In this document: piece after piece, positions 35,555 through 51,815 of the stretch
How positions within the stretch are numbered: the first letter of the stretch is position 1
How the letters are laid out: every line of letters starts with the position of its first letter
Assembly: GCF_030345715.1 (NCBI RefSeq)
Contig: NZ_JAUASX010000001.1
Location: 124,001-188,000 of the forward strand
Length of the DNA: 64,000 nt
From: Solimonas sp. SE-A11
Lineage (GTDB): Bacteria; Pseudomonadota; Gammaproteobacteria; Nevskiales; Nevskiaceae
Direction: 5' to 3'
The notes under the pieces: model-generated
Database searches by the model: none
The model's input: the letters and a program-made list of their open reading frames with translations, nothing else
Told to the model about the DNA's origin: nothing
Position numbers and translations under genes: made by a program

Positions 35555-35627
35555 CGAGGTCAACGCAGACCTCGTAGGTACCGCGGTCAACGATGCCCGC
35601 TTCCTGTGCAGCACTTCTCAGGGGAGC
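35555..35627 (+). promoter_or_regulatory. ANTAR-type leader: two hexaloop hairpins plus a possible SD-sequestering stem
   Basis: P1 (35555-35574) is CGAGGTC/GACCTCG with loop AACGCA. P2 (35583-35600) is GCGGTC/GCCCGC with one T-C mismatch and loop AACGAT. Both loops have A at position 1 and G at position 4, the known ANTAR recognition pattern, and the linker is 8 nt. No intrinsic terminator follows. Instead GCTTCC (35599-35604), which uses the last two bases of P2, can pair with GGGAGC (35622-35627) over the Shine-Dalgarno. Formation of P2 would therefore free the start site of the gene at 35634. Confidence 0.7.
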
Positions 35628-35633
35628 TTGGTC

Positions 35634-37412
35634 ATGTCGTTGATCGCAGAAGGCAAAACCGCGTCGGAGCCCGCATCGGGCCGCGGTTCGCTGGCGATCC
35701 TTCGCGGTGCATCCATCTGGTGCATGCTGGCGACGGCGCTGCCGGCCTTGCCGGCGCATGGCGCCGAGACGCCCGTGGCGCTGGCCTCCGCGGCATTGGA
35801 GCTGGACCGCCAGGCGCAGTCCCTGCCGGCGACGTCCGACGCGCAGCGTCTCATCCTTTACGTCGGCAATCGCATCGAGGGTTCGCTGCTGCGTGAGGTC
35901 AGCGTGACGCTGGACGGTCGCACGACCGCGCGCCACCGCTACAGCGACCGTGAGGCCCTGGCGCTGCGCAGCGGCGGATTGCACACGATCACCCTGGCGC
36001 CGATGGCCGAAGGCGTCCATCGCCTGCGCGTGGACTTCATCGCGCGAGCCGAGGATGCCCAGCCGGGCGATGCGCGCCTGCACGCGCAGATCGAACAGGA
36101 GTACAGCAAAGGCGTTGCCGCCGGCCGTGTCGAGCTGACCTTGACCAGGCAGGGCCTGCGCGGCAGGCCGAGCCTGCAGTGGCAGGACTGGGCGCAGCCG
36201 CAGGCCGCACTGGAGGCGCCGGAACTGCGCGCCGCCGATTTCCTGCTGCGTACCGGACGGGCGCTTCACGCCGCCGCGGTGCTGGAGCGCCTGCGTGCCA
36301 GCGGCATGCCGCTGCCGGTGGCCTTCGAGCGCCGCATGGCCGACAGCTTCGCCGCGCTGGGCCTGGCGGCGCCGGCCGTGCCGGGCGGTTCGCCGCTGCT
36401 GGATCGCTTCGGCGCCGCCGTTGCCGCGCTGCGCCAGGGCGATGCGCAGGCCGCGGCGCAACTGGAGGCCATGGGCAGTGCGGATTCGCCGGACGCCGAG
36501 TCCCGCATGCTGCGCGACTACGCCAACCTGGAGCTGGGGTACCAGTTGCTGCGCCAAGGGCAGGGCGAGCGCGCCAAGCCGGTGTTCGCGCGCATCCGCA
36601 GTCCCGGGCCCTGCTCCAACGCCGCGCTGCTGGGCTTCGGCTGGTCCTTCCTGGTGCCGGCGGAAGCCCAAGGCAGCGGCATGTTCGTCGCGCAGGCGCC
36701 CCTGTGGCCGGCAGGCCCCGAGGATGCTGCCCGCCTGCGGCGCAGCACGCCGTTCCGTTACCTGCATTCGGTGGCGCTGTCCGGCGAGCGCAAGCTCGAC
36801 CTGCAGCGGGCGCTGGTGCCCTGGGTGGAACTGCTGGGGCGCGATGCCACCGATCCGGCGGTGCAGGAAGGCCTGCTGGCCGTGCCCTATGCATTGGCGC
36901 ATCTCGGTGCGCACGAGCAGTCTCAGCAGTACCTGCGCCGCGCCGTGGGCGACCTGGAGCGTGCACGACAGGAACTCGATGCCGCGATGCGTCACGTCTC
37001 CGGCGGCGAACTGAGCGCGCGCCTGCGGGAGCGCATGGACGACGAGGTCGACGGCTGGCGCCGCGAACTGGCGGACCTGCCCTATGCCGGGGCTACCGCC
37101 TACCTGAAACCGCTGATGCTGGAGCCGGCCTTCCTCGACGCCCTGGCGACGCAGCAGCGCCTGGCCGAGATCGACCAGGTCCTGCGGGCACAGGCCTCGC
37201 GTCTCGACTCCGCCCCGGCCGGGATGGCGGCCTCCATCGCCGGGCTGCGGCAGCGTGTCGCCGCCGTGGCGCAGCAACAGGATGAGGACTTGCGCACGCT
37301 GACGCTGGACCATCTGCGCCGCCAGCAGCAGCACACGCTGGCCTATCTCGCGGAGGCGCGCCTGGCGCTGGCGCGCGTGCATGATCGACCGCTGGAGGAC
37401 GAAGCCTCATGA
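35634..37412 (+). CDS. Large exported protein, first gene of the ExbB/ExbD-linked operon
   Basis: A 592-residue protein with an N-terminal segment and signal-like hydrophobic stretch ending AHG|AE near residue 45. The body is helical, with beta-rich residues 70-170 (VSVTLDGRTTARHRYSD; VDFIARAEDAQPG) and then TPR/Sel1-like helices (LELGYQLLRQGQGERAKPVFARI). A coiled, glutamine-rich tail (QQQDEDLRTLTLDHLRRQQ) closes it. I recognise no named family. Shine-Dalgarno AGGGGAG at 35621-35627. Its stop overlaps the next start by 4 bp. Probably a periplasmic scaffold working with the TPR protein that follows. Confidence 0.75.
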   Translation: MSLIAEGKTASEPASGRGSLAILRGASIWCMLATALPALPAHGAETPVALASAALELDRQAQSLPATSDAQRLILYVGNRIEGSLLREVSVTLDGRTTARHRYSDREALALRSGGLHTITLAPMAEGVHRLRVDFIARAEDAQPGDARLHAQIEQEYSKGVAAGRVELTLTRQGLRGRPSLQWQDWAQPQAALEAPELRAADFLLRTGRALHAAAVLERLRASGMPLPVAFERRMADSFAALGLAAPAVPGGSPLLDRFGAAVAALRQGDAQAAAQLEAMGSADSPDAESRMLRDYANLELGYQLLRQGQGERAKPVFARIRSPGPCSNAALLGFGWSFLVPAEAQGSGMFVAQAPLWPAGPEDAARLRRSTPFRYLHSVALSGERKLDLQRALVPWVELLGRDATDPAVQEGLLAVPYALAHLGAHEQSQQYLRRAVGDLERARQELDAAMRHVSGGELSARLRERMDDEVDGWRRELADLPYAGATAYLKPLMLEPAFLDALATQQRLAEIDQVLRAQASRLDSAPAGMAASIAGLRQRVAAVAQQQDEDLRTLTLDHLRRQQQHTLAYLAEARLALARVHDRPLEDEAS

Positions 37413-40225
37413 TCCGCGCCGGACTCATGCTGAGCCTGCTGCTGGCAAGCGCTGCTGCCGTTGCGGCGGATGCGGTCTCCACCGTCGGCTCGGTCACCGA
37501 GAACAATGGCCTGTCGAAGAACGGCTGGCTGCTGGTGCGCACGCCCAGCATCCTGCGCGTGACCGGATCGGCACAGGTCACGCCCGATCCGCGCCAGGCC
37601 CTGGAGCAGTATGACCGCATCCAGGAGTTGTCCGGTATCGATCCGGCGATCCGCGCCGAGGCCCTGCGGCGCTCGGCCGACCTGCGCATCCGGCTCGCCG
37701 AGTCCGGCGAGATGGATGCCGCAGAACTGGACCGGGCCGTGAATGCCTATCGCCGCCTGCTGGCCGAACAGCCGGACTACGTGCGGGCCGATCGCGTGCT
37801 CTACCAGCTCGCCCGCGCCAGCGAGATGCGCGGTGACGAGGCACAGGCCGTCGCCAGCCTGAGGCAGCTCGGACAGCGCTATCCGCAATCGATCCGCCGC
37901 GCAGATGCGCAGTTCCGTGCCGCCGAACTGCTCTACCGTGATCGCCGCTACGCCGAGGCCGAGTCGCAGTATCGCGAGGTGGTGGCGTTGGGTGGCAAGA
38001 CGCCGTTGTTCGAGCCGGCGCAGTACAAGTACGCCTGGTCGTTGCTGCAGCAGTCCAGGCACGAGCAGGCCCTGCCGGTGTTCATCGCCGTGCTGGATCG
38101 CGAGTTGCCGCCGGGCGAACTGAGCGACCCCAAGGCCGCGCTGGCGGCCGTGCGCAGCGGACGCGCCGAACTGGCCGGCGACGCGCTGCGTGGCGTCGGG
38201 CTGTCGCTCGCGGCGCTGGGTGGTGGCGCTGCGCTCAACCGCCAGTTTGTGCAATCCGGCGAGCCGCGCTTTGCCGCGCTGCTGCATGCGGCGCTGGGCG
38301 AGCAACTGCTGGAGAAGCGCCGCTACAGCGACGCCGCCGGCAGCTACCTGGCCTTCATCGAGCGCCACCCGCGCCATGCGCTGGCGCCGGGCTTCCAGCG
38401 CCAGGCCATTGCCGCCTACGAGCGTGGCGGCTTCACCGAGCAACTGGTGGCCGCCAAGGAAGCCTATGTACGCGAGTACGCGCCGGGCAGCGCCTACTGG
38501 GCCGTGGCGGCCGTACCGGCCGAGGTGCAGGCGCAGGTACGCCAGGACATCGAGGAGCTTGGCCGCCACTACCAGGCCAGTGCGCAGCGTACCGCGGCGG
38601 GGCCGATGCGACGGGCGCAATTCCTGAAGGCGGCCGAGTGGTACGGCCGCTGGCTGTCGCTATACCCGCAGGACGCACAGGCGCCGGCCATCCACCTGAC
38701 GATGGCGGATGCCCTGCTCGACGGCGGCCGCGCGGAAGAAGCCGCGCGCCAATACGCCCGCGTGGCCTACGACTATCCCGTGCATGCGCGCAGTGCCGAG
38801 GCCGCCTACGCCGTGGTGCAGGCCTGGCAGCAGGCGGCAGCGATGCCCGCGGCGCACAGCGATGCGTTGCGCGAATCGGTGGCGGCGAGCCTCAAGCTGG
38901 CCGAGCGCTATCCGCAGCATTCGCAGCGCTTCACCGTGCTGGCGCGTGCCGCCGGAGATCTTTACGCGCTGGGCGATCACGCACAGGCGGTGGCGCAGGC
39001 ACAGCGCGTGCTGGACGGCTCCGCGCAGTTGCCGCCGGACCTCGCGCGCAGCGTGCTGGGTATCGTGGCCGACGCCAGGTATGCGCAGAAGCAGTACGCC
39101 GAAGCGGAGTCGGCCTATGCCGCACTGCTGCAGCGAGTGCCCGCCGGCGATACCGCGCGGCAGGCGACGGTCGAGCAGCTCGCCGCCTCCATCTACCGCC
39201 AGGGCGAGGCGGCGCGCGGCGCGGGTGACCTGCGCGGCGCCGCGGCGGCCTTCCAGCGAGTCGGACGCGCGGCCCCCGAGGCCGGCATACGCGCCACCGC
39301 CGACTACGACGCGGCTGCCGCACTGATCGCGCTGCAGGACTGGCCGCAGGCGCAGGCGGCGCTGGAAGCCTTCCGGCAGCGCTACCCGCAGCAGCCGCTG
39401 CTGCCGGAGGTGGATCGCAAGCTGGCGGTGGCCTACCAGAAGGGTGGGCGCCCGGCGCAGGCGGCCGATGCCTATGCCCGGATCTCGGCACGTGCCACCG
39501 AAGAGCCGGCGTTGCGGCGCGATGCCACCTGGCTCGCCGCCGAACTCTACGGCGAGGCGCGCATGCCATCGGCCAGCCTGCGTGCCTACGAGGACTACCT
39601 CTCGCGCTATCCGCAGCCGCTGGAGCCGGCGCAGCAGGCACGGCGCCGCCTGGCAGACCTGGCCCGCGATGATGCGCCGCGTTACCAGCGCTGGCTCGTC
39701 GAACTGGTGGATGCCGATGCGCGCGGTGGCTCGGCGCGTACGCCGCAGACACGCCTGCTGGCCGCGCAGGCCAGCCTGGAGCTGGGCCGCATCGAGGCGT
39801 CGAAGGCGCGCGAGCTGGCGCTGCGCTCGCCGGTGGAAAAGACCCTGCCGGCCCGCAAGGCCGCCACCGAGCGTGCCATCGCCGGCCTCAGCCGAGCCGC
39901 GGGCTACGGCTTCGCCGAGGTCACCACCGCCGCCACCTACGACATCGGCGGCGTATGGCGCGACTTCAGCCGGGCGCTGCTGGCGTCCGAGCGGCCGCGC
40001 GAGTTGCGCGGCGAGGCGCTGGAAGAGTACGAGCTGCTGCTGGAAGAGCAGTCCTATCCCTTCGAGGAAAAGGCGATCCAGGCGCACGAGATGAACTTGC
40101 AGCGCCTGCGCCAGGGCCTTTGGGACGAGTCGATCCGCCGCAGCAGCTGGGCGCTGGCGGAACTCGCGCCGGCTCGCTACGGCAAGCAGGACCAGAGGGA
40201 GACGAACTATGAAGCGCTACGCTGA
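37409..40225 (+). CDS. Large periplasmic TPR protein
   Basis: A 938-residue protein with a clear signal peptide (residues 1-20, AVAAD). Nearly the whole length is TPR-like (AVNAYRRLLAEQPDYVRADRV; AAELLYRDRRYAEAESQYREV; AARQYARVAYDYPVHARSAE; AVAQAQRVLDGSAQLPPDLA; ALEAFRQRYPQQPLLPEVDR). Such proteins accompany MotA/TolQ-type motors, for example AglT and related proteins of Myxococcus gliding motility, where they help couple the motor to the periplasm. The role here is inferred only from this resemblance. It overlaps both neighbours. Confidence 0.8.
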   Translation: MIRAGLMLSLLLASAAAVAADAVSTVGSVTENNGLSKNGWLLVRTPSILRVTGSAQVTPDPRQALEQYDRIQELSGIDPAIRAEALRRSADLRIRLAESGEMDAAELDRAVNAYRRLLAEQPDYVRADRVLYQLARASEMRGDEAQAVASLRQLGQRYPQSIRRADAQFRAAELLYRDRRYAEAESQYREVVALGGKTPLFEPAQYKYAWSLLQQSRHEQALPVFIAVLDRELPPGELSDPKAALAAVRSGRAELAGDALRGVGLSLAALGGGAALNRQFVQSGEPRFAALLHAALGEQLLEKRRYSDAAGSYLAFIERHPRHALAPGFQRQAIAAYERGGFTEQLVAAKEAYVREYAPGSAYWAVAAVPAEVQAQVRQDIEELGRHYQASAQRTAAGPMRRAQFLKAAEWYGRWLSLYPQDAQAPAIHLTMADALLDGGRAEEAARQYARVAYDYPVHARSAEAAYAVVQAWQQAAAMPAAHSDALRESVAASLKLAERYPQHSQRFTVLARAAGDLYALGDHAQAVAQAQRVLDGSAQLPPDLARSVLGIVADARYAQKQYAEAESAYAALLQRVPAGDTARQATVEQLAASIYRQGEAARGAGDLRGAAAAFQRVGRAAPEAGIRATADYDAAAALIALQDWPQAQAALEAFRQRYPQQPLLPEVDRKLAVAYQKGGRPAQAADAYARISARATEEPALRRDATWLAAELYGEARMPSASLRAYEDYLSRYPQPLEPAQQARRRLADLARDDAPRYQRWLVELVDADARGGSARTPQTRLLAAQASLELGRIEASKARELALRSPVEKTLPARKAATERAIAGLSRAAGYGFAEVTTAATYDIGGVWRDFSRALLASERPRELRGEALEEYELLLEEQSYPFEEKAIQAHEMNLQRLRQGLWDESIRRSSWALAELAPARYGKQDQRETNYEALR

Positions 40226-40847
40226 GCTTTGCGCCCTGGCCGCGATGGTCCTGGGCCTTGCGGCCTGCGCCGGTGGTCCGGCGCCGCGCCCGCATCCTCC
40301 GGCACCTCCGCCGGCACCGAAGGCGGCCGCGGTCCAGGCGCCTGCGGCGGGCAAGGCGGAGCAGCGCTACCAGGAAGCACTGGCCTTGCTGAAGAACGGC
40401 CAGCGCAAGCCGGCGCAGGACATTCTGCTGGTGCTGACGCGCGAGCAGCCCGAGCTGTCCGGACCCTGGACCACGCTAGGCATCAGCCAGGCCCAGGGCC
40501 AGCAGCGCGACGCCGCCATCGCCAGCTTCACGCGTGCCGTGGCTGCCAATCCACGAAACGCCATGGCGTACAACTGGCTCGGTAGCCTCTACCGCGAGTC
40601 CGGCAACCTTGTCGCGTCCGAGCAGGCCTACCTGAAGGCCCTGGCGTCACAACCGGACTACGCCGTGGCGCACCTTAACCTGGCGATCCTCTACGACGTA
40701 TCGATGAAGCGCCCGCAGCAGGCGCTGTCGTACTACCGCAGCTACCAGCAATTCAAGGGTGGCGAGAACCTGATCGTGAGTGCCTGGATCAAGGAGCTGG
40801 AAGCCGCGCAGCCGCCGCCGGTGAGCGTCGCCGGGGTACAGCCATGA
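40209..40847 (+). CDS. TPR lipoprotein
   Basis: A 212-residue protein. Lipobox LAAC at about residues 17-20, a proline-rich spacer (RPHPPAPPPAPK), then about four TPRs (ALALLKNGQRKPAQDILLVL; ASFTRAVAANPRNAMAYNW; AYLKALASQPDYAVAHLNLA). No sorting Asp follows the Cys, so it is likely outer-membrane bound. It resembles PilF-type lipoproteins in layout. It overlaps the previous gene by 17 bp and the next by 4 bp, so it belongs to the same operon. Confidence 0.85.
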   Translation: MKRYAELCALAAMVLGLAACAGGPAPRPHPPAPPPAPKAAAVQAPAAGKAEQRYQEALALLKNGQRKPAQDILLVLTREQPELSGPWTTLGISQAQGQQRDAAIASFTRAVAANPRNAMAYNWLGSLYRESGNLVASEQAYLKALASQPDYAVAHLNLAILYDVSMKRPQQALSYYRSYQQFKGGENLIVSAWIKELEAAQPPPVSVAGVQP

Positions 40848-41116
40848 GAGGCCTGCTGCTGTCGCTATGCCTGTGGGGCACGGTCGCCCTGGCGCAGCCT
40901 CCCGCGCCCGAGGCCGGTACCACCATCGTCGGCGAGCAGGAGTCGGCAGTGGGGTTGTTCCTGACACCCTGGCAGGACGAGCGTGCCAGCGATGTCGACC
41001 GGCCGCCCTCGCGCCTGTCGCCAGTAACGCCGGATGCCGGCTCCTTCGCCGCCAGCGCCATGGCCTACGAGTCGCAGTGGGCCTACCGGCGCGAACAGTT
41101 GCAGCGCGTGCATTGA
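40844..41116 (+). CDS. Small exported protein of unknown function
   Basis: A 90-residue protein with a signal peptide (MRGLLLSLCLWGTVALAQ). The mature 70 residues are polar with no cysteine and no recognised domain; the end AYESQWAYRREQLQRVH is probably helical. It starts inside the stop of the TPR lipoprotein gene (ATGA), so it is a true part of the operon. Confidence 0.65.
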   Translation: MRGLLLSLCLWGTVALAQPPAPEAGTTIVGEQESAVGLFLTPWQDERASDVDRPPSRLSPVTPDAGSFAASAMAYESQWAYRREQLQRVH

Positions 41117-41147
41117 TTCACGTGCCCCGATTCAACGGAGAACCCGC

Positions 41148-41792
41148 ATGGAAACCTTCGAACCCCTGGCCCGCTTCTTCAACAGCGGCGGCATCTTCAT
41201 GTACCCCATCGCGATCACGCTGGCGCTGGCGCTGGCGGTCGCGGTGGAGCGCTTCATCTTCCTGATGCGCTGGCGGCGCGACAACCGCCGACTGTGGTCG
41301 GAGGTCTCGCCGCTGTTGGCGCAGGGCGACCTGGCCGGTGCCGAACTGCTGACCGCCAGCTCTGATACCGCGGTGGCGAAGATCCTGGCCAATGGCCTGG
41401 CGCAGACGCGCATCGACAGCCGGCGCAGCGAGCTGGAGATCGCCACCGAGGAAGGCCTGATGGAAGTGCTGCCGGCCATCGAGCGGCGTACGCACTACCT
41501 CGCCACCTTCTCCAACGTGGCCACGCTGCTGGGCCTGCTCGGCACCGTGCTGGGCCTGATCGGTGCCTTCGCGGCACTGGGCGCCGCCGATGCTTCGCAG
41601 AAGGCCGACCTGCTCTCCGCCGGAATCTCCGAGGCCATGAACTGTACCGCCTTCGGGCTGATGGTCGCCATTCCCTCGCTGCTGCTGCATTCCTGGCTGC
41701 AGAGCCGCACCGGTGAGTTGGTGGACAGTCTCGAATCGGTCTGCTCGCGCTTTGTCAGCAGCATCTGCAATCCCGCGCGGGCGGCTCGCTGA
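41148..41792 (+). CDS. MotA/TolQ/ExbB proton-channel protein
   Basis: A 214-residue protein with three membrane helices: IFMYPIAITLALALAVAVERF, FSNVATLLGLLGTVLGLIGAF and ISEAMNCTAFGLMVAIPSLLL. The last two carry the small-residue and Thr pattern that lines the proton path in ExbB/TolQ. It should form a pentamer around a dimer of the ExbD-type proteins encoded next. ATG 41148 has Shine-Dalgarno GGAG at 41137-41140. Confidence 0.9.
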   Translation: METFEPLARFFNSGGIFMYPIAITLALALAVAVERFIFLMRWRRDNRRLWSEVSPLLAQGDLAGAELLTASSDTAVAKILANGLAQTRIDSRRSELEIATEEGLMEVLPAIERRTHYLATFSNVATLLGLLGTVLGLIGAFAALGAADASQKADLLSAGISEAMNCTAFGLMVAIPSLLLHSWLQSRTGELVDSLESVCSRFVSSICNPARAAR

Positions 41793-41802
41793 GACCCCTG
41801 CC

Positions 41803-42348
41803 ATGAGCACCTGGTCCCTCGACGAAGACGAATTTCCGCGCACCAGTCGCCGACGTGAGCGCCGGCAGCAGCGCCTGCTGCGCCAGGGCGAACAGGAGGA
41901 ACTGAACCTGGTGTCGATGATCGACGTCTTCGCCGTGCTGGTGTTCTTCCTGCTGGTCAGTGCTTCCGTCGGGGCCCTGAAGCTCAAGGTCTTCGGGCTG
42001 GACCTGCCGGCACCCGGCGCCGCCATGGCCGCAGCTCCCGCGCCGCCGGTGGTGCGCCTGCTGTCCGAGGCGATGCTGGTGGAGATCGCACCGGCTCCGC
42101 GACGGCGGCTGCCGCGCACGGCGGCAGGGCATGACCTTGCGGCGCTGTCGGCCCTGCTGGTGCAGGCCAAACAGCTGGCTCCGGCGCAGCAGCAGGTTAC
42201 GCTGCTGGTCGATGCCGACGTGTCCTACGACGAAGTGGTGCAGGTGATGGAGACGTTGCGCCGTATGCCTGCCGCGTCCCGCCGGATCGGCTTGCCCACC
42301 GAACTGTTCCCGAAGATCGCTCTCGGCGACGTGGAGCGCGGCACATGA
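41803..42348 (+). CDS. ExbD/TolR-type protein, first copy
   Basis: A 181-residue protein. A basic cytoplasmic tail (RRRERRQQRLLRQG) precedes one membrane helix with the essential proton-carrying Asp41 in LNLVSMIDVFAVLVFFLLV. The periplasmic domain is about 125 residues with VTLLVDADVSYDEVVQVMETL, as in TolR/ExbD. Two different ExbD-type partners with one ExbB-type protein recalls AglR-AglQ-AglS of Myxococcus. Confidence 0.9.
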   Translation: MSTWSLDEDEFPRTSRRRERRQQRLLRQGEQEELNLVSMIDVFAVLVFFLLVSASVGALKLKVFGLDLPAPGAAMAAAPAPPVVRLLSEAMLVEIAPAPRRRLPRTAAGHDLAALSALLVQAKQLAPAQQQVTLLVDADVSYDEVVQVMETLRRMPAASRRIGLPTELFPKIALGDVERGT

Positions 42349-42824
42349 ATGCACGCCAGCACCAGCGCCGGCAGGCCCGCGAACTTCGCGGCCGCTCGCG
42401 CCGTGCCGTCATCAACCTGGTATCGATGATCGACGTGTTCGCGGTGCTGGTGTTCTTCCTTCTGGTGAATGCCCTGGTGGTGCAGGTTATCCCCACGCCG
42501 CCGGCCCTGCAGTTGCCCGCGGCGGCGATCAGCCCCGAGCCGAATCCTGCGGTGGCGATCACGGTGGGCACCGAAGAGGTGCGCCTGGGCGACCGGGTGG
42601 TGCAGGGCACGGCGCAACTGCTGCGCGGTGACAGTGCGGGCTTGCGGGCCGCGCTGGCCGAATTGCCGATGGCCAATGGGACCGATCGCGGCGAGATCAA
42701 CATCCTGGCCGACAAGCGCGTGTCCTACCGCGCGCTGCGCGAAGTCATGAACGCCTGCAGCGACAACCGCTATGCGCAGGTTTCGCTGGCGGTGGCGGAG
42801 CGCGATCCCGGAGATGGGGCATGA
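42345..42824 (+). CDS. ExbD/TolR-type protein, second copy
   Basis: A 159-residue protein paralogous to the preceding one. The membrane helix INLVSMIDVFAVLVFFLLV is almost identical to it (Asp30), but the periplasmic part differs (GEINILADKRVSYRALREVMN). It starts within the previous stop codon (ATGA). The pair may form a heterodimeric rotor. Confidence 0.9.
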   Translation: MNARQHQRRQARELRGRSRRAVINLVSMIDVFAVLVFFLLVNALVVQVIPTPPALQLPAAAISPEPNPAVAITVGTEEVRLGDRVVQGTAQLLRGDSAGLRAALAELPMANGTDRGEINILADKRVSYRALREVMNACSDNRYAQVSLAVAERDPGDGA

Positions 42825-43764: not shown

Positions 43765-43780
43765 TGGCATGGCGTTTGCT
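43765..43780 (+). promoter_or_regulatory. Sigma-54 promoter of the DUF3034-globin operon
   Basis: TGGCAT-GGCGT-TTGCT, with exact GG-N10-GC spacing. The predicted start near 43791 gives a leader of about 168 nt that contains the hairpin pair and terminator listed next. Confidence 0.8.
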
Positions 43781-43821: not shown

Positions 43822-43860
43822 GCGGACAGAGTCGCCCGCCCCGAACGGACAGAGACGTCC
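43822..43860 (+). promoter_or_regulatory. ANTAR-type hairpin pair in the DUF3034 leader
   Basis: P1 (43822-43835) is GCGG/TCGC with a closing G-T pair and loop ACAGAG. P2 (43847-43860) is GGAC/GTCC with loop AGAGAC. Both loops have A1 and G4; the linker is 11 nt. The 3' arm and loop end of P2 overlap the 5' arm of the terminator that starts at 43855, so P2 and terminator cannot form together. This is the textbook ANTAR antitermination layout. Confidence 0.8.
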
Positions 43861-43903
43861 ACGTTGTCGGCATCGCAGCCGGCCAACGTGGACGTTTTTT
43901 TTT
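43855..43903 (+). terminator. Leader (attenuator) terminator before DUF3034
   Basis: A 12-bp stem ACGTCCACGTTG/CAACGTGGACGT closes a 17-nt loop and is followed by nine T. It lies inside the leader of the next gene, so it can stop transcripts from the 43765 promoter and also read-through from the ExbB/ExbD operon. Confidence 0.9.
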
Positions 43904-44996: not shown

Positions 44997-45021
44997 TCGG
45001 CCCCCACACAGGAGAAACATC

Positions 45022-45492
45022 ATGAAGCTATCAAAGATCGGCCTCAGCCTCTTCACCGGCGCAGCGCTGCTGGCGGCCTCCGCCCAGCCCGCCTTCGCCG
45101 GCGAGCAGAAGACCAAGCCCATCCTCGGCATTCCCAAGAGCGCGCTCGACGACTTCGGTGGCGCGGCTGGCGTGCATGCCTGGGTGGAGAGCCTGTTCTA
45201 CTACATCATGCTCGACAACCGCATCAGCCACATCTTCCGCGAGTTCGGCAACGTGGAGCGCCAGATCGCGCTCAACACCCAACTCGAGCAGATGGTGCTG
45301 GGCGGTGCGGTGGAATACCAGGGCGCCAGCATGAGCGCGGCGCATGCGGACCTGGGTATCACCATGACGCAGTTCAACGCGGTGGTGGAAGCGGCCTACA
45401 ACGCCTGCGAGCGCAACAACGTGCCTTACAAGACCTGCAATCACCTGATCGCGGCGCTGGCACCGTTCACGCGGGTAATCGTCACCAGGTAA
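45022..45492 (+). CDS. Exported group 1 truncated haemoglobin
   Basis: A 156-residue protein. Residues 1-26 are a Sec signal peptide (ASAQPAFA|GE), which is rare for a globin and puts it in the periplasm. The rest follows group 1 truncated globins: FGGAAGVHAWVESLFYY (Tyr60 or Tyr61 at the B10 position), GGAVEYQGASMSAAH with the proximal His108, and LGITMTQFNAVVEAA. Such proteins bind O2 and NO and can act as NO dioxygenases when reduced. With NsrR next door, NO scavenging is a fair inference. Two Cys (residues 133 and 143 region, NACERNN and KTCNH) might form a disulfide. Confidence 0.88.
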   Translation: MKLSKIGLSLFTGAALLAASAQPAFAGEQKTKPILGIPKSALDDFGGAAGVHAWVESLFYYIMLDNRISHIFREFGNVERQIALNTQLEQMVLGGAVEYQGASMSAAHADLGITMTQFNAVVEAAYNACERNNVPYKTCNHLIAALAPFTRVIVTR

Positions 45493-45603: not shown

Positions 45604-46038
45604 TCAGGCGGCGCGCAGCAGACGGTTGAGGCGCACCAGGGTGGGGCCCTTCACGACGTCGGCGAGGGTGTATTTCTTCAGCTCGTCGAGGAAGCCGCGC
45701 TCTGCGGCATCCAGGGCGGACTTGAGCAGGCAGGCGCCGTTGAGGGCACAGGGGCCACGCTTGCAGTCGGCCAGCCGGCCGCTGCCTTCCATGGCTTCCA
45801 CCACGTCGCCGATGCGCAGCTGGTCCATGGGCGTGAGCAAGCGCAGGCCGCCGAGACGGCCGCTGACGGTCTCGACATAGCCGAGCTTGCGCAGGCCTTG
45901 TGCCACCTTGTGGAGATGATGCGTGGAAACACGCAGCTGCTCCGAGATGCGCGCAGTGCCGACGGGTTTTCCGTCGGTATTGCCGGCGAGATACACCAGC
46001 AGGCGCAAGGACAAATCGGTGTAAAGGGAGAGGCGCAC
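45604..46038 (-). CDS. nsrR: NsrR, Rrf2-family NO-sensing repressor
   Basis: A 144-residue protein started at GTG 46038, giving MRLSLYTDLSLRLLVYLA, the usual NsrR N-terminus; the frame is open far upstream but without homology. The winged HTH includes RISEQLRVSTHHLHKVAQGL. The Fe-S ligands are C92, C97 and C103 in DCKRGPCALNGAC, the C-x4-C-x5-C spacing of NsrR. The [4Fe-4S] or [2Fe-2S] cluster reacts with NO and DNA binding is lost. Divergent from the ANTAR regulator gene. NsrR may repress itself and nearby operons. Confidence 0.9.
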   Translation of the reverse strand: MRLSLYTDLSLRLLVYLAGNTDGKPVGTARISEQLRVSTHHLHKVAQGLRKLGYVETVSGRLGGLRLLTPMDQLRIGDVVEAMEGSGRLADCKRGPCALNGACLLKSALDAAERGFLDELKKYTLADVVKGPTLVRLNRLLRAA

Positions 46039-46153: not shown

Positions 46154-46169
46154 TGGCATCTGCTTTGCA
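46154..46169 (+). promoter_or_regulatory. Sigma-54 promoter of the ANTAR regulator gene
   Basis: TGGCAT-CTGCT-TTGCA keeps exact GG-N10-GC spacing. The predicted start near 46180 leaves a 25-nt leader with Shine-Dalgarno AGAAGGA and no hexaloop hairpins, so the regulator is not controlled by itself at RNA level. Confidence 0.75.
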
Positions 46170-46204: not shown

Positions 46205-46813
46205 ATGCTTTCTGAACACACAAAACTACGTGTGATGCTGGTCGACGACGACCAGGAAAGGCTGGCCTTGCTGGAAAGGGCCCTTGTTACGGAGGGGCAC
46301 CAGGTGGTGGCCCGGTTCAACACCCATGCGGACCTGACCATGGCCGTGGCAGTGCACAAGCCGGAGGTGGTGTTCATCGACGTCGATGCCCCTGGACGGG
46401 ACATCCTGCAGTCGCTGGGCGAGATGTACCGCGAGCATCCGCGGCCCATCGTGCTGTGGGCGGAGCAGAGCGATGCGCAGACCACGCGCCGCGCACTGGA
46501 TGCGGGCGTCAGCGCCTACGTGGTGGACGATCTGCAGAGCCGGCGCAATTTCAGTGCATTGCTCGACCTGGCGATTGCCCGCTTCGAAATGCAGCAGGCG
46601 CTGCACCAGGAACTGGATCGGGCGAAGACGCGGCTGGCTGATCTGCGCGATATCGAGAAGGCCAAGGGCCTGTTGATGAAGCGCCGCAGCCTGGATGAGG
46701 CCTCGGCCTACAACCTGCTGCGTCGCATGGCGATGGACCGCAAGCAGCGCATCGGGGATTTTTCGCGGACGCTGCTGAGTGCGGCGGATGTGTGGACGGA
46801 GTTGGGGGGGTGA
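46205..46813 (+). CDS. NasT-like response regulator with ANTAR RNA-binding domain
   Basis: A 202-residue protein. The REC domain (residues 8-125) has the acidic cluster Asp14-16 and phospho-acceptor Asp59 in VVFIDVDAPGRD, a stretch typical of NasT. Residues 130-145 are a coiled linker. The ANTAR domain (about 140-198) has LADLRDIEKAKGLLMKRR and AYNLLRRMAMDRKQRI. ANTAR proteins dimerise and bind two hexaloop hairpins in mRNA leaders, usually preventing a terminator. NasT is held by the nitrate/nitrite sensor NasS, which is not encoded in this window. Its likely targets are the four leaders at 35555, 43822, 47304 and 51745-51815. Confidence 0.88.
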   Translation: MLSEHTKLRVMLVDDDQERLALLERALVTEGHQVVARFNTHADLTMAVAVHKPEVVFIDVDAPGRDILQSLGEMYREHPRPIVLWAEQSDAQTTRRALDAGVSAYVVDDLQSRRNFSALLDLAIARFEMQQALHQELDRAKTRLADLRDIEKAKGLLMKRRSLDEASAYNLLRRMAMDRKQRIGDFSRTLLSAADVWTELGG

Positions 46814-47277
46814 TCTCTCTCCCTTCTCCGTCGCTTTGTTGGAGTGTGGGGCTCTTGGTCAAAAACGTTGATGCCGGCGACGACACCGGTCAGGTGCTTT
46901 GGATCTTTGGAGGTTAATTTCGCCTAAGGGCGAGTTACTTTTCTTTGGCGGCCCCGCTGAGACGGGGCAAGCCGCCCGGCGGTCGGTAGCGACGGGTCGG
47001 GCACACAGGCCATCCATGGCCTGCGTGTCCTCGGCCGGGCATCCATGCCTGGCTCGACCCTGCGCCCGACCACCGGGCGGGCGCTACTGGAAGGGGCCCG
47101 AACATCAACAGCATTCGCTGCGCTCACCAAGCTCTCTCATGACGCAGATTCGCACCACCAGCGCGCGCCTGCGCTCGTTTACAACGCAGCAGATTGCCTG
47201 CGGGTGTTCCACGTCTTGGCGCATCCGCCCTGAAAAAGTACACCGGGTCAGGCGCTTAAACGTGGCATCCGAAATAC
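46814..47277. other. Gene-free stretch with a repeat-like core
   Basis: No convincing gene in 460 bp. An open frame at 46899-47285 has no homology I recognise and its codon pattern is unlike the neighbours. The core around 46915-46960 contains GGCGAGTTACTTTTCTTTGG, a phrase I have met as a dispersed intergenic sequence in other GC-rich proteobacteria, here followed by inverted segments (GCCCCGC..GAGACGGGGC). It may be a degraded repeat. Confidence 0.4.
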
Positions 47278-47293
47278 TGGCATAGCGATTGCT
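47278..47293 (+). promoter_or_regulatory. Sigma-54 promoter of the FMN-binding/PepSY/ApbE operon
   Basis: TGGCAT-AGCGA-TTGCT with exact GG-N10-GC spacing. The predicted start near 47304 is the first base of the P1 hairpin. Confidence 0.8.
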
Positions 47294-47303
47294 ACTTTTA
47301 TCC

Positions 47304-47348
47304 TGCGGGCAGCGACGAGGCTGCCTGCATTCGAGGACACCGACGTCC
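47304..47348 (+). promoter_or_regulatory. ANTAR-type hairpin pair in the FMN-operon leader
   Basis: P1 (47304-47329) is a 10-bp stem with one G-T pair, TGCGGGCAGC/GCTGCCTGCA, and loop GACGAG; it has G4 but G instead of A at position 1. P2 (47335-47348) is GGAC/GTCC with loop ACCGAC, A1 and G4 as expected. The linker is 5 nt. P2 overlaps the 5' arm of the terminator at 47343, so the two exclude each other, as in the DUF3034 leader. Confidence 0.75.
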
Positions 47349-47386
47349 ACGCCACCGGAGTTTCCGGCGACGTGGACGTTTTTTTT
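47343..47386 (+). terminator. Leader (attenuator) terminator before the FMN-binding gene
   Basis: Outer stem ACGTCCACG/CGTGGACGT, inner CCGG/CCGG, followed by eight T. The outer arms are the same as in the terminator at 43855-43903. Confidence 0.9.
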
Positions 47387-47437: not shown

Positions 47438-48061
47438 ATGAACGATCCGATAACGATGACCACATCACCAGAAAAGTTCGCACTCTCCGTCCCCCCGGCG
47501 CCGGCCGTTTCCGGAACGCGGCGTTCCTTACTGCGTGGCGCGCTGGCGCTGCTGGCCCTGCCCATGACCAAGGTCGCGATCGGTGCGGGGGAGATGGACA
47601 AATTCTTCAAGACCTTCCAGACGCCCGAGGCCTTCCTGGCGGAGGCCTTCGGCGCCACGGTGCCACCGGCTTCGACGCTGGACCTGGACGATGCCAAGCA
47701 GTCCCAACTCTCCGGTGTCTATGGCCGCCGCTATCCGCAGGCGCGCCTGCGCTATTGGCGCGCGCCCAATGGACGGACTGCCTGGATATTCGACGACATC
47801 GGCAAGGAGGGCTACGTTCCCACCACGTCCGGTTTCGTGGTGCAGAACGGTGTCGTGGAATTCGGCCGCGTGCTGATCTATCGCGAGTCGCGCGGCGAGC
47901 AGATCGCGGAGCGCTCTTTCCTGCAGCAGCTGGTGGGCGCCCGCGCCTCCGGCAACGGCATCGACAGGAAGGTCGACAACGTTTCCGGCGCGACCTATTC
48001 GGTGAAGATGATGCAGCGCATGGCACGCACCGCCCTCGTGCTCGACTCCCTGGCCCGGTGA
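47438..48061 (+). CDS. Exported FMN-binding domain protein
   Basis: A 207-residue protein (ATG 47456 is an alternative start). The N-terminus has a twin-Arg segment GTRRSLLRGALALLALP, consistent with Tat export of a folded protein. The FMN-binding domain includes AWIFDDIGKEGYVPTTSGFVV and ends with DNVSGATYSVK. The Thr in SGATYS (Thr186) is the residue to which ApbE links FMN by a phosphoester. It should be a one- or two-electron carrier in the periplasm. The partner membrane protein and ApbE follow in the operon. Confidence 0.85.
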   Translation: MNDPITMTTSPEKFALSVPPAPAVSGTRRSLLRGALALLALPMTKVAIGAGEMDKFFKTFQTPEAFLAEAFGATVPPASTLDLDDAKQSQLSGVYGRRYPQARLRYWRAPNGRTAWIFDDIGKEGYVPTTSGFVVQNGVVEFGRVLIYRESRGEQIAERSFLQQLVGARASGNGIDRKVDNVSGATYSVKMMQRMARTALVLDSLAR

Positions 48062-48066
48062 TCACC

Positions 48067-48954
48067 ATGCCCGAGCCCCAGACCCTTGCGGCCCAGGTGC
48101 CTGACGGTGATCGAGAGCCCGGCGCGCGCTGGCAGCGCTGGATGCAGCGACTGCGCATGGGTGCAGCGCCCTCCCCGGCGGGGGTGCGGCCCAAACGCAA
48201 TCTGAATGTCCTGCTGCGCGAGTGGCACAAGCGCGCCGGCCTGTTCGCCTTCCTGTTCTTGATCTGGCTCGGCTTCAGCGGGTTCCTGATCAACCAGAGC
48301 GCCAGTTGGGGTTACGACACCAAGCGGGTCGACTGGGATTGGGTCATGCGCCTCTACAGCCTCCATCCGGAGCCGCCTCAGGTGGGCTTCCGTGCCGGCA
48401 ACTACTGGCTCGCCTCCACCAGCGACTACACCCTGATCGATGCCAAGCCCCTGGAGACGCCGATCCGCGAATTGCGCGGCTTCGTGCAGGGCGGCAGTGC
48501 CGACAAGCCGCTGCTGTTCGTCGCAGCGACGGAGAGCCTGCTGCTGCTGACCCCGAAGGGCGAGCGCATCGACGAACTGACGCCGCCGATCCTGCCGGTG
48601 TCCACCATCCGCCGCATCGGCAGCGTGAAGGGCCATCCGGGCAGCATCGCCGTGCAGGACCTGGACGCCTTCCAGAGCCTGGACGAGGGCAACAGCTGGA
48701 CGCCGGTCGCGTCCACGGCTGTGGAATGGTCGGAGGCGCAGCCCTTGCCGGACGGCGAACGGTCGCGGCTGACGCCGTATTCCCGGCCCAGCGTTTCGCT
48801 GGAGCATGTCCTGGTGGACGCGCACAGCGGCCGGCTGTTCGGCAGCTTCGGGGCCTGGGTGATCAATTTCGTCGGTATCGCCGCGATGCTGCTGGCGATC
48901 AGCGGCATCTGGATGATGTATCGCACCAGCAGTGCCCGCAGGAAGAGGCAATAG
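48067..48954 (+). CDS. PepSY-like membrane protein
   Basis: A 295-residue protein. A basic N-terminal region precedes LLREWHKRAGLFAFLFLIWLG (first helix, about 50-80, with the His typical of PepSY_TM proteins). A periplasmic domain of about 170 residues follows, then a second helix near the C-terminus (VINFVGIAAMLLAISGIWMMY). Proteins of this type pass electrons across the membrane to FMN-binding partners or act as accessory subunits. The start ATG 48067 lies 6 bp after the previous stop; a GTG overlapping that stop is also possible. Confidence 0.75.
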   Translation: MPEPQTLAAQVPDGDREPGARWQRWMQRLRMGAAPSPAGVRPKRNLNVLLREWHKRAGLFAFLFLIWLGFSGFLINQSASWGYDTKRVDWDWVMRLYSLHPEPPQVGFRAGNYWLASTSDYTLIDAKPLETPIRELRGFVQGGSADKPLLFVAATESLLLLTPKGERIDELTPPILPVSTIRRIGSVKGHPGSIAVQDLDAFQSLDEGNSWTPVASTAVEWSEAQPLPDGERSRLTPYSRPSVSLEHVLVDAHSGRLFGSFGAWVINFVGIAAMLLAISGIWMMYRTSSARRKRQ

Positions 48955-48981
48955 GCTGATCGGGCTGACAGGACGTCTCGC

Positions 48982-49998
48982 ATGACCATGATGCGACCGC
49001 TGCTGGTGCGTGGCCTGCGGCTGCAGACGCCGGCGATCATCCGCCGGCGCTTCCTGGCCATGGGTACCGAGGTGATGGTGACCGTGGCCTGCCGCGGACG
49101 CCGCAACGATGCCGAGGCGGCGGTCCTGGCAGTGCGGCGGCTGATCGAGGATTTCGGCCGCGATTGGTGGGCCTGGGGCAGCGGCGCGCTGGGAGGCATC
49201 AACCGGCGCCTGGCGGCCGGCGAGGCAGTCGACATACCCATGGTGATGCGGCCCCTCTTTTGCCGCGCCTGGGAGATCCACCTGCGCACCGGTGGCGCCT
49301 ACGAGCCGCGCATCGGGGCGCTGGTGCGGCTCTGGGGCTTCGACGATGTCGCACGCATCCGTGATGCCCCGCCGCCGGCCGATGACATCGCGGCCGCGCA
49401 TGAGGCATTGCGCGCCGCGGCGCCCTACGATGATGCGGGCCACTATGGTCCTGCGCCGGGCGTCAGCTGGGATTTCGGCGGTATCGCCAAGGGCTGGATC
49501 GTGGATGCGGCGCTGGACCTGCTGGCGCATCACGGCTTCACCGACGCGACGGTAGATGCCGGTGGCAACCTGGCCACACGGGGCCAGCGGCATGAGCGCG
49601 CATGGCGCATCGGCATCCGCGATCCACGCGCTGATCCGGACCAGCCCGGCCTTCTGGCGAGCCTGGAGACCGGCGACGAGGCCGTGAACACGCACGGCGA
49701 CGACCAGCGCTGGTTCGAATACCAGGGGCGTCGCTACTCGCACCTGCTGGACCCGCGCAGCGGCTGGCCCGCGCAGGGCCTGCGCGCCCTGACGGTGCTG
49801 CATCCCGACGGCAGTTGGGCGGAAGCCGCCGGTGCCGCACTGTTCGTGTCGGGCCCGCAGGGGTGGCAGCTGCTGGCCCGCCGCCTGGGCCTGACGCAAC
49901 TGCTGGTGGTGCACGAGGACGGCCGCGTGCAGGCCACCGCGCCGCTGCTGGCCCGGCTCACGCCGGAACCGGGCGTGCACATCGAGCGCCTGGATTAG
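48982..49998 (+). CDS. apbE: FAD:protein FMN transferase
   Basis: A 338-residue protein. Motifs are RRFLAMGTEVMVTV, SWDFGGIAKGWIVDAALDL, TVDAGGNLATRG and the Mg-site region HLLDPRSGWPA. ApbE moves FMN from FAD onto a Thr of target proteins; the target is very probably the SGATYS motif of the FMN-binding protein two genes upstream. No lipoprotein signal is obvious. The N-terminus is slightly hydrophobic only, so its location (cytoplasm or periplasm) is unclear. Confidence 0.9.
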   Translation: MTMMRPLLVRGLRLQTPAIIRRRFLAMGTEVMVTVACRGRRNDAEAAVLAVRRLIEDFGRDWWAWGSGALGGINRRLAAGEAVDIPMVMRPLFCRAWEIHLRTGGAYEPRIGALVRLWGFDDVARIRDAPPPADDIAAAHEALRAAAPYDDAGHYGPAPGVSWDFGGIAKGWIVDAALDLLAHHGFTDATVDAGGNLATRGQRHERAWRIGIRDPRADPDQPGLLASLETGDEAVNTHGDDQRWFEYQGRRYSHLLDPRSGWPAQGLRALTVLHPDGSWAEAAGAALFVSGPQGWQLLARRLGLTQLLVVHEDGRVQATAPLLARLTPEPGVHIERLD

Positions 49999-50017
49999 AG
50001 CTCAACAGAAAGCCCCG

Positions 50018-50061
50018 AAAAAAAGAATCCCGCGGCGGAAGGGGAGGCATCCGCCGCGGGA
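50018..50061 (-). terminator. Intrinsic terminator of the OmpA-cupredoxin transcript
   Basis: On the minus strand a 12-bp perfect stem TCCCGCGGCGGA/TCCGCCGCGGGA with a 10-nt loop is followed by ATTC and seven T. It lies between the convergent apbE and OmpA-cupredoxin genes. Confidence 0.88.
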
Positions 50062-50079
50062 AAGCACACCCCATTCAGT

Positions 50080-51540
50080 TCACTTCACGATCACCTTGCC
50101 CGACATCGACGGGCCGTGGATCGAGCAGTCGTAGGGATACTCGCCCGGCGTGGTGAAGCTGCGGCTCCAGGTGGCGCCCTTCTTCATGCGGCCGCTCTTC
50201 TGGTCGCTGAAGGAGACGTTGTGGTTGGAGCCATCGTCGTTGGTCCAGGTCACCGTGCTGCCGGCCGTGACCGTGATCTCCTTGGGCTCGAACACCATCA
50301 TGCCGATCGTGACCTGAGCATTGCCGCCGGCCGCGGCCGGCGCCGGTGCAGGGGCAGCCTCCGGTTCCGGCACCAGGACGGTCTCCGGCAGGGCTTCGGG
50401 CTCATGGGCATGAGTCATGGGGGCCGCAGCCGGTGCCGGCTCGGCGATCTGCACCTCGGAGCTACCTTCCGGTGTCGGGGCATAGGTGACCACCGCGGCG
50501 CCGCTGATCTCCACCACCTTGAGTTCCACGCGGCGATTGAGCTCGCGGCCCTCGTCGGTGTCGTTGGTGGTGATCGGCTTGCTCTCGCCGAAGCCGACCG
50601 TGGTCATGCGCATCAGGTCCACGCCGCGGCTGCTGAGATAGTCCTTGACCGATTGCGCGCGACGCTCGGAGAGCTTCTGGTTGTAGGCATCCGATCCCTT
50701 GGCATCGGTATGGCCGTCGATTTCCACCTTGATGTCGGTACGCGCCAGCAGGGCGTCCGCCACCATGTCGAGCAGCGTCTTGGCGTTGACCGTGAGCTTG
50801 GACTTGTCGAACTCGAAGTTGACGCCGCGCAGCACGATCACGTCGCCGGCCTTGCAGCCTTCCAGCGTCATCGGCTGGCCTGGTGCCGGCAGTTCGCAGG
50901 GCGGCACCGGGGGTGGCGGCACTGGCTCGGCGGCCATTTCCACCGGCGGCACCACCTGCACCGGTTCAACGATTTCCTTGGGGGCGGCGCGGCTGCCGAT
51001 AGGGATGTGCAGGCCGAGGTTGAACTGCGTTTCCTCGTAGTCGCCCTCGTCGCTGTGGAACAGCGCCTCGGCACGCAGGCCCCAGCCGCCGTCGCTGCCG
51101 CCCAGGTGCAGGCCGATGCCGGCATTCATCAGCGTGCTGTCGCCGCCCATGACGTCGCCGTGCAGGTAGAAGTGGCGGCCCAGGAACAGGTTGGCGCCGG
51201 CACCGAGTGCGTAGATCTCCACGTCCTCGGGTTCAGGGCAGGGCAGCAGTCCGCAGAGCAGGCCGCCGACCAGGCCGCGATCAATGCTCTTGGCGTCGTA
51301 CTTCAGGTAGTTGCCACGCAACTCCAATTCGAACATCGGCGTGATGCGCTTGCCGAAGGCCAGCGTCGCGCCGATGCCATCGTCGGTGTTGCGCGCGTCG
51401 TCGGCCAAGACGTAAGAGGCCATCGGCTGGATGTAGTAGCGGTCGTCATAGTCGTCGTCCGCCTGCGCCGCGCCGCAGAACATTGCGGCGGCGAGCAGGG
51501 GGATCAGGCGGGGTTGCAACCGGAGGTGGAGGTGGTGCAT
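50080..51540 (-). CDS. OmpA-family protein fused to a C-terminal cupredoxin domain
   Basis: A 486-residue protein. Signal peptide about 1-27, an eight-strand barrel (about 30-180), a proline hinge, and an OmpA wall-binding domain (about 225-345: VNFEFDKSKLTVNAKT; DGHTDAKGSDAYNQ; GRELNRRVELKVV). After an Ala/Pro/Glu linker, residues 413-486 form a plastocyanin-type domain (MVFEPKEITVTAGSTVTWTN). Type 1 copper ligands are visible as His440, Cys472, His475 and Met479 (SNHN; DCSIHGPSM). A copper electron carrier tethered to the cell wall is inferred. The fusion is unusual. It follows a small gene under the sigma-54/ANTAR leader at 51745-51842. Confidence 0.88.
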   Translation of the reverse strand: MHHLHLRLQPRLIPLLAAAMFCGAAQADDDYDDRYYIQPMASYVLADDARNTDDGIGATLAFGKRITPMFELELRGNYLKYDAKSIDRGLVGGLLCGLLPCPEPEDVEIYALGAGANLFLGRHFYLHGDVMGGDSTLMNAGIGLHLGGSDGGWGLRAEALFHSDEGDYEETQFNLGLHIPIGSRAAPKEIVEPVQVVPPVEMAAEPVPPPPVPPCELPAPGQPMTLEGCKAGDVIVLRGVNFEFDKSKLTVNAKTLLDMVADALLARTDIKVEIDGHTDAKGSDAYNQKLSERRAQSVKDYLSSRGVDLMRMTTVGFGESKPITTNDTDEGRELNRRVELKVVEISGAAVVTYAPTPEGSSEVQIAEPAPAAAPMTHAHEPEALPETVLVPEPEAAPAPAPAAAGGNAQVTIGMMVFEPKEITVTAGSTVTWTNDDGSNHNVSFSDQKSGRMKKGATWSRSFTTPGEYPYDCSIHGPSMSGKVIVK

Positions 51541-51578
51541 GGGATCCCTTACTTGTATGTGTAGCTGAGGCGAAGCCT

Positions 51579-51743
51579 TCAGCGGACCGGCGCGCGCGGC
51601 TTGTCGCTCCGCAGCCGGCCGGCGACCGAGCGAAGTCCCTGGGTGAAGCGCGGTAGCTGGAGCAGCAGTGCGAGGCCAAGGCCCAGAAGGGCGATGACCT
51701 CGATGGCGGATCCGATGAAGGGAAATAAAACAGGCTCTGACAT
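51579..51743 (-). CDS. Small single-span membrane protein
   Basis: A 54-residue protein, MSEPVLFPFIG then a membrane helix IEVIALLGLGLALLLQL and a basic tail (RFTQGLRSVAGRLRSDK). Shine-Dalgarno AGGGAG lies 6 bp before the ATG at 51743. The frame extends further upstream but the ANTAR leader and this Shine-Dalgarno fix the start. It lies 38 bp before the OmpA-cupredoxin gene in the same direction. Function unknown. Confidence 0.6.
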   Translation of the reverse strand: MSEPVLFPFIGSAIEVIALLGLGLALLLQLPRFTQGLRSVAGRLRSDKPRAPVR

Positions 51744-51744
51744 G

Positions 51745-51815
51745 GCGACTCCCTGGCTGAAGCTCGGAACAGTCGCGGACGTCATCGGCCGCACAACACG
51801 GGGGCAGCAGTGCCC
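51745..51815 (-). promoter_or_regulatory. ANTAR-type leader: hexaloop hairpin pair and possible SD-sequestering stem
   Basis: On the minus strand P1 (51802-51815) is GGGC/GCCC with loop ACTGCT (A1, G4). P2 (51775-51792) is GCGGCC/GTCCGC with one C-T mismatch and loop GATGAC (G1, G4). The linker is 9 nt. No terminator follows. GCGACT (51771-51776), sharing two bases with the 3' end of P2, is perfectly complementary to AGTCGC (51745-51750), which overlaps the Shine-Dalgarno. The geometry is the same as in the leader at 35555. Confidence 0.65.

Follow-up and report, generated by a model that had tools for sequence, protein, structure and literature searches.

We analysed a window of 64,000 nucleotides (nt) from Solimonas sp. 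SE-A11 (contig NZ_JAUASX010000001.1, positions 124,001 to 188,000 of the forward strand), in which four operon leaders each carry two neighbouring hairpins with hexanucleotide loops, P1 and P2, downstream of a sigma54-type promoter (Table 1). These leaders are very probably ANTAR target RNAs of one regulon, a reading with strong support at the level of sequence: in relatives the element is conserved and covaries, follows the loop rule and overlaps terminators. The likeliest regulator of all four operons is the ANTAR protein encoded among them at 46205. The evidence for leaders 1 and 4 is weaker than that for leaders 2 and 3. The paired-hexaloop ANTAR switch itself is known; these results point to ANTAR-type control of a set of envelope operons, not described in the literature that we searched, with hairpins that recur before the same genes in related bacteria.

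Table 1. Leader elements, promoters, regulators and target operons in the window (hairpin loops in square brackets; positions are those of the window)
Feature	Positions	Strand	Sequence or remark
Leader 1 sigma54-type promoter	35529-35544	+	TGGCATGGCCATTGCT, exact match
Leader 1 P1	35555-35574	+	CGAGGTC[AACGCA]GACCTCG, starting at inferred transcript start
Leader 1 P2	35583-35600	+	GCGGTC[AACGAT]GCCCGC, one mismatch beside closing pair
Leader 1 Shine-Dalgarno-pairing hairpin	35599-35627	+	5' arm opens with last two P2 bases; moderate evidence
Operon 1	35634-43738	+	two large proteins (first without Pfam match, second TPR-rich), small TPR protein, ExbB, two ExbD, TonB-like
Leader 2 sigma54-type promoter	43765-43780	+	exact pattern match
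Leader 2 P1	43822-43839	+	GCGGAC[AGAGTC]GCCCGC, probable register
Leader 2 P2	43847-43860	+	GGAC[AGAGAC]GTCC
Leader 2 intrinsic terminator	43856-43903	+	P2 3' arm within its 5' arm; ends in nine Ts
Operon 2	43959-45492	+	DUF3034 protein and globin
Rrf2-family regulator	45604-46038	-	divergent from ANTAR gene; nearest solved relative NsrR
Sigma54-like site 5' of ANTAR gene	46154-46169	+	one mismatch to pattern, TTGCA end
ANTAR protein	46205-46813	+	receiver-like and ANTAR domains, NasT paralogue
Leader 3 sigma54-type promoter	47278-47293	+	exact pattern match
Leader 3 P1	47304-47329	+	TGCGGGCAGC[GACGAG]GCTGCCTGCA
Leader 3 P2	47335-47348	+	GGAC[ACCGAC]GTCC
Leader 3 intrinsic terminator	47343-47386	+	overlaps P2 3' arm; ends in eight Ts
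Operon 3	47438-49998	+	FMN-binding protein, PepSY membrane protein, ApbE flavin transferase
Operon 4	50080-51743	-	54-residue peptide and OmpA-cupredoxin protein
Leader 4 Shine-Dalgarno-pairing hairpin	51745-51776	-	5' arm opens with last two P2 bases; moderate evidence
Leader 4 P2	51775-51792	-	GCGGCC[GATGAC]GTCCGC, mismatch beside closing pair
Leader 4 P1	51802-51815	-	GGGC[ACTGCT]GCCC
Leader 4 sigma54-type promoter	51827-51842	-	exact pattern match

Direct reading confirmed the hairpins at the positions given for all four leaders in a preliminary description of this DNA, together with seven of its eight loops; the first loop of leader 2, described as ACAGAG, is probably AGAGTC, two bases further on. 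The two registers tie at a score of 3.5 (four pairs, one of them G-U, for ACAGAG; five pairs and one mismatch for AGAGTC), and our hairpin picker chose ACAGAG in the window and in two of the genus-mates. AGAGTC is preferred because it was the register taken in the third genus-mate (L046) and the one in which the covariance model described below aligns this hairpin. With either register, position 4 of the loop is G in all eight hairpins and position 1 is A in six and G in two, which agrees with the earlier count, and the linkers between P1 and P2 measure about 5 to 9 nt, short as previously described (5-11 nt).

The sigma54-type promoters, as well as the terminators that overlap P2 in leaders 2 and 3, were found on direct reading and add to that description. 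Within the window, the exact pattern TGGCAYNNNNNTTGCT occurs only at 35529, 43765 and 47278 (+) and at 51842 (-), each time directly 5' of one leader; the whole genome holds 11 such sites, and all four of those in the window have a hairpin pair downstream. The usual spacing from a sigma54 promoter to its transcript start would put the starts at about 35555, 43791, 47304 and 51816, so that P1 of leaders 1, 3 and 4 would coincide with the start or lie no more than a few bases from it, and P1 of leader 2 would lie about 30 bases in. No hairpin pair was seen on reading the leader that follows the sigma54-like site of the ANTAR gene itself. A search for NtrC-like activator sites revealed no common site upstream of the five promoters; the only good match, at the leader 4 promoter (11/12), was equalled in 16 of 1,500 random stretches and was rejected.

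As a gauge of chance, the score of the weakest leader (7.5) was reached in 13 to 17 per 2,000 dinucleotide shuffles of each leader and in 112 of 3,916 random stretches of the window. Score alone proves no single leader, because two of the seven other exact sigma54 sites in the genome also reach it (loops GGCGCC/GCCGGC, 8.0, and ATCGGC/GCGGGC, 9.0, both GC-rich); the other five have no pair. It is conservation, not hairpin score, that carries the case.

The nearest kin are a Solimonas metagenome-assembled genome (MAG; JASBRP010000053) and Solimonas fluminis, and relatives of the DUF3034 protein of operon 2 were found on 32 named contigs, mostly from Nevskiaceae with a few MAGs titled Lysobacteraceae, Verrucomicrobia, Rhodospirillales or Salinisphaerales. 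At least two regulon gene groups (counted as TPR/ExbB/ExbD/TonB, DUF3034/globin, FMN-binding/PepSY/ApbE and OmpA-cupredoxin) were present in 23 of 40 stretches taken around ANTAR genes. We collected 85 leaders, comprising the window's four and 81 from relatives upstream of regulon genes; a sigma54-like site was required for the 81, so that this promoter is present in them by selection. P2 was chosen by its stem (RGAY-N6-GTCC) regardless of loop, since a first picker had mistaken the terminator loop of leader 2 for P2, and P1 was the best hexaloop stem upstream. The strict P2 stem occurs in 60 of the 85 leaders, and in these 60, which are not independent and in part come from close species, G4 is found in 57 P2 and 57 P1 loops and A1 in 52 P2 and 47 P1 loops. 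Their linkers span 2 to 13 nt, and in 55 of them the 5' arm of a terminator holds at least three of the four GTCC bases of P2. Three genus-mates retain the P1/P2 pattern seen in leaders 1 and 4.

Covariation in P1 was assessed in an alignment of 25 leaders whose P1 stems scored at least 3.5, where six of seven pairs change on both sides, giving 22 such cells; shuffles averaged 6.0, and sliding gave no more than 11. A covariance model (R1) was then built from this alignment, whose 25 leaders all come from relatives, five of them from species also named Solimonas and none from the window or genus-mates G001-G003. Such a model had been proposed in the preliminary description, and with it the four leaders rank first to fourth of 81 matches in the window, two strongly and two weakly (35.9, 31.7, 15.1 and 12.9 bits; fifth match, 11.2). 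Genome-wide, leaders 3 and 2 come first, followed by a site on C13 (antisense to a coding frame by eye) and by the leader of nrtA.

We also applied R1 to 61 genomes, which revealed matches with E ≤ 0.001 in 25 of 37 family genomes (including G003, whose only match lies outside the regulon) and in 1 of 24 outside the family. Many of the matched genomes supplied training rows and their matches therefore come by construction; no rows came from G000 (the genome of the window), G001, G002, G006, G017 or G027. Among the 43 matches, 29 were inspected (with the L179 and L187 elements placed by the coordinates of genome searches), and 27 of these lie upstream of DUF3034, OmpA-cupredoxin, FMN-binding, TPR or nirB genes; inspection of matches L193 and L195 revealed no regulon gene. 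A sigma54-like site, by a loose pattern, stands 5' of 25 of the 29. Against Rfam at the gathering threshold, only tRNA and TwoAYGGAY were matched in the window, Rfam content for an ANTAR-target family not having been checked.

Because P2 overlaps the terminators in leaders 2 and 3, we read these two as antitermination switches. For leaders 1 and 4, the combination of no intrinsic terminator with a Shine-Dalgarno hairpin that starts at the end of P2 suggests translational control, with moderate evidence. We selected 16 terminator-less leaders by the P2 form GCGGYC[N6]GYCCGC, namely leaders 1 and 4, the counterparts of each in three genus-mates, five small-peptide leaders from other Solimonas records and three narK leaders. 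In all 16, many of which are near-copies of one another, the Shine-Dalgarno sequence is mostly paired (0.75 to 1.00) and more so than in the mean of its own shuffles, and in 14 the covering hairpin opens with the final GC of P2. A search pattern for terminator-less P2 was discarded as unspecific, since a reversed control gave at least as many matches in most of 100 genomes (own genome, 13 versus 19).

The protein at 46205 lies amid the operons, as the preliminary description had it, and combines receiver-like and ANTAR domains; among solved structures it is closest to the antiterminator 1s8n and the response regulator 6wsh, while NasR and AmiR rank lower. It is one of two ANTAR proteins in the genome, the other being NasT (G000:C23:46794-47360; 53% identity). 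Phylogenetically, it falls in a clade of 20 rows (support 100/99) apart from the genome's own NasT; NrtA labels in this tree are partly cross-hits to NasS. The ANTAR gene stands among the target operons in every one of the genus's four genomes and also in further genera, as do many members of the 46205 clade. Across 58 family genomes, an ANTAR match with E ≤ 1e-20 accompanied DUF3034 in 39 of 39 cases and none of 10 genomes without such a match had DUF3034, though kinship is uncorrected here and the match may be NasT.

The genome has four PF13379 matches, corresponding to NasS beside NasT, an adjacent nrtA-like gene and two weak matches elsewhere. In other genera, NasS adjoins members of the 46205 clade, and of the 20 rows, the Rrf2 gene is nearby in 13 and NasS in 8, with both present in 2 and neither in 1. 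This near-exclusive neighbourhood looks as if one sensor had replaced the other, and since the six NasS-only rows form one clade, the swap may have been a single event. The Rrf2 protein next to the window's ANTAR gene has cysteines aligned with the three of NsrR and scores below the NCBIfam NsrR cut-off (102.6 of 182 bits). We tentatively suggest, with rather less than even confidence, that a NasT paralogue which lost its nitrate sensor NasS and is now under an NsrR-like, nitric-oxide-sensing neighbour and sigma54 may control several envelope redox operons as one regulon by two types of RNA switch, terminators and Shine-Dalgarno hairpins.

None of the four operons consists of nitrate assimilation genes, but nirB, nrtA and narK carry the same element. 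At the genome's own NasT-NasS locus, a presumed target upstream of nrtA has P2 GGAC[AACGGC]GTCC and a terminator. The nirB gene of G027 carries the R1 element, and three leaders of narK (named by NCBIfam TIGR00886) carry P2 with the same mismatch as leaders 1 and 4. A strict P2 followed by a T-run was found at 5 of 71 gene starts of the nirB, nasA or nrtA type, some of the rest of which may lie inside operons. NirB- or NasA-like genes also occur near the regulon in some of the relatives' stretches, and the regulon probably has a role connected with nitrate, nitrite or nitric oxide.

From features obtained by computation (RNA elements, conservation, terminator overlap, promoter-like sites and gene content) we infer a mechanism, including its protein binding, transcript starts, direction of control, inducing signal and translational step. 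Transcription would begin at the sigma54 promoters, with P1 and P2 folding in the nascent RNA. In leaders 2 and 3, as long as no active ANTAR protein is present, the strong intrinsic terminator would capture the 3' arm of P2 and RNA polymerase would stop; the active protein, most likely the NasT paralogue at 46205, would grip both hexaloops and stabilize P2, and the terminator would thereby be prevented. The competing structure in leaders 1 and 4 would be the Shine-Dalgarno hairpin, and because it shares its first bases with P2, binding is proposed to alter the start of translation.

Several observations weigh against four ANTAR-target leaders governed by the 46205 protein. The strict P2 stem is missing in 25 of the 85 collected leaders, including leaders 1 and 4, and 21 of the 85 had no pair by the first scoring; the score filter on P1 stems favours pairing, and P2 yields no covariation because it hardly varies. 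Leaders 1 and 4 are weak matches in the window (E = 0.029 and 0.12), close to the fifth, and in leader 1 it is P2 that R1 aligns to its own P1. Among the 21 genome-wide matches, leader 1 comes 15th, leader 4 is absent and an unrelated place is third. Neither has a terminator, Shine-Dalgarno pairing in the 16 terminator-less leaders is not significant for any single one (11 to 154 of 300 shuffles equal it) and the hairpin involved shares about two bases with P2. Finally, no NasS match adjoins the 46205 gene or lies within the window, and the second ANTAR protein, NasT, is an alternative possible binder.

The weak model scores, the lack of terminators and the two other sigma54 sites that reach the hairpin score would all fit if leaders 2 and 3 alone were ANTAR targets and leaders 1 and 4 were chance look-alikes under sigma54. 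This is improbable given that leaders 1 and 4 rank third and fourth in the window by a model blind to all four genomes of the genus, start directly after exact sigma54 sites, keep their pattern in the genus-mates and have a P2 that is seen again, mismatch included, 5' of the small peptide (five other Solimonas records) and of narK (three). The palindromic form and promoter location of the inverted repeats could also indicate DNA sites of a sigma54 activator or repressor, but this is very improbable: the repeats lie 3' of the inferred start, the P1 stems differ and covary whereas positions 1 and 4 of the loops stay conserved, and P2 overlaps terminators. We give still less credence to chance hairpins in GC-rich DNA: the weakest score is indeed reached in random stretches and at other sigma54 sites, yet pairs occur at all four sigma54 sites of the window, with cross-genus conservation, loop rule and covariation, and for leaders 2 and 3 chance is already contradicted.

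More serious is the possibility that the leaders are ANTAR targets regulated by NasT, with NasS, from elsewhere in the genome and that the 46205 protein is redundant or partial, which we regard as unlikely but by no means negligible. The presumed nrtA target shares P2 and terminator with the leaders, so that control by NasT, or by both proteins, is possible, and in five stretches from several genera (L059, L065, L066, L070 and L072) just one ANTAR gene was seen close to the equivalent operons, and it adjoins NasS and lies outside the 46205 clade. In the window's genus and others, by contrast, the operons carry their own ANTAR copy, from a separate and well-supported clade, among the targets. 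The preliminary description had the 46205 gene controlling all four operons; this is still the likeliest reading because of the gene's place among the targets and its separate clade with many members likewise placed, qualified by the NasT alternative and the weaker leaders 1 and 4. We accordingly infer binding by the 46205 protein rather than by NasT.

According to PMC3795266, NasT binds the nasA leader once nitrate splits the NasS-NasT complex. The window resembles NasS-NasT systems (Paracoccus and others) in its NasT-type protein, leader hairpins with terminator, NasS near relatives of the 46205 gene and the element shared with some nitrate genes, but the targets here are four envelope redox/TonB-type operons, and an NsrR-like gene rather than NasS neighbours the ANTAR gene. 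The account in PMC3369931 of NasR-nasF (Klebsiella) and EutV-eut (Enterococcus) gives two hexaloop hairpins with A1 and G4, an eut linker of 5 to 12 nt and a P2 overlapping the terminator, and also predicts multi-operon ANTAR regulons in other bacteria. Paired A1/G4 hexaloops, a short linker and, in leaders 2 and 3, the P2-terminator overlap are likewise found here; the differences are the sigma54-type site 5' of every leader, the lack of a terminator in two of them, other target genes and a frequent mismatch beside the closing pair.

In leaders 1 and 4 the element lies near the ribosome binding site, as it does in ANTAR RNAs of actinobacteria and mycobacteria that act on translation. Those RNAs, as presented in PMC8164766, hold the ribosome site or start codon inside the dual hairpin, and binding represses in mycobacteria, whereas here a third hairpin 3' of P2 covers the site, and control could act in either direction. 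The PAL photoreceptor contains an ANTAR domain, and the NmPAL switches built on it differ from the present leaders in being engineered, light-driven and based on another aptamer. In these switches the RNA-binding photoreceptor acts on a Shine-Dalgarno hairpin, as PMC11381354 describes. PepSY-type flavinylated clusters share an FMN-type flavinylation partner, a PepSY membrane protein and ApbE with operon 3; those covered by PMC8238504 have DUF2271/DUF4198 partners and Fur control, its main text does not mention DUF3034 or cupredoxin, and the present system has DUF3034, globin and ANTAR leaders instead. Open-access titles and abstract openings yielded no description of this regulon, supplementary tables (for example, of the 2012 ANTAR survey) lying outside that scope.

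If the ANTAR reading holds, this control would extend to an uncharacterised envelope system (ExbB/ExbD/TonB-like proteins, TPR proteins, DUF3034 barrel, globin, flavinylated electron carrier and cupredoxin) and offer a clue to its physiology in nitrate, nitrite or nitric oxide. It would also provide naturally occurring leaders that join one RNA element to either a terminator or a ribosome-site hairpin, making two outputs of one kind of RNA-binding protein directly comparable.

The products of the four operons look secreted or envelope-located from their sequences, and the operons appear to encode an envelope redox and TonB-type apparatus. The FMN-binding protein of operon 3 scores just above the Pfam cut-off and has an SGAT motif by eye. 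The structure predicted for DUF3034 has low confidence (pLDDT 58.5); it resembles FapF, OmpG and further barrels, so the protein may be an outer-membrane barrel and is assigned nothing more specific. The globin of operon 2 (45022-45492), of the bacterial-globin family and with an apparent signal peptide by eye, adjoins DUF3034 in many relatives. DUF3034 is duplicated, with equal or nearly equal scores, in G035:C44, G033:C1 and G050:C10, and beside this duplication G035 and G033 each have two equal-scoring leaders. The 54-residue peptide of operon 4 (MSEPVLFPFI..., 51579-51743, minus strand) had no Pfam or NCBIfam match; similar small peptides follow leaders of the ANTAR-like kind in five further Solimonas records, three of which have the peptide upstream of the TPR operon.

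Two Rfam TwoAYGGAY matches occur in the genome, one partial between the ANTAR gene and leader 3 (46991-47062, minus strand) and one at L063:14075-14195, and are perhaps a dispersed palindromic repeat. The genome's own nasT is preceded by an exact sigma54-type site (G000:C23:47742-47757; L063) and then by a CGGGC[AATGGC]GTCTG hairpin that runs by eye into a terminator; the pair finder gave no full hairpin pair there, and autoregulation of nasT is possible. Another exact site (G000:C10:39278-39293; L008) is followed by a Guanidine-I riboswitch (90 bits) and further on by a PF13379 match (C10:39641-40303).

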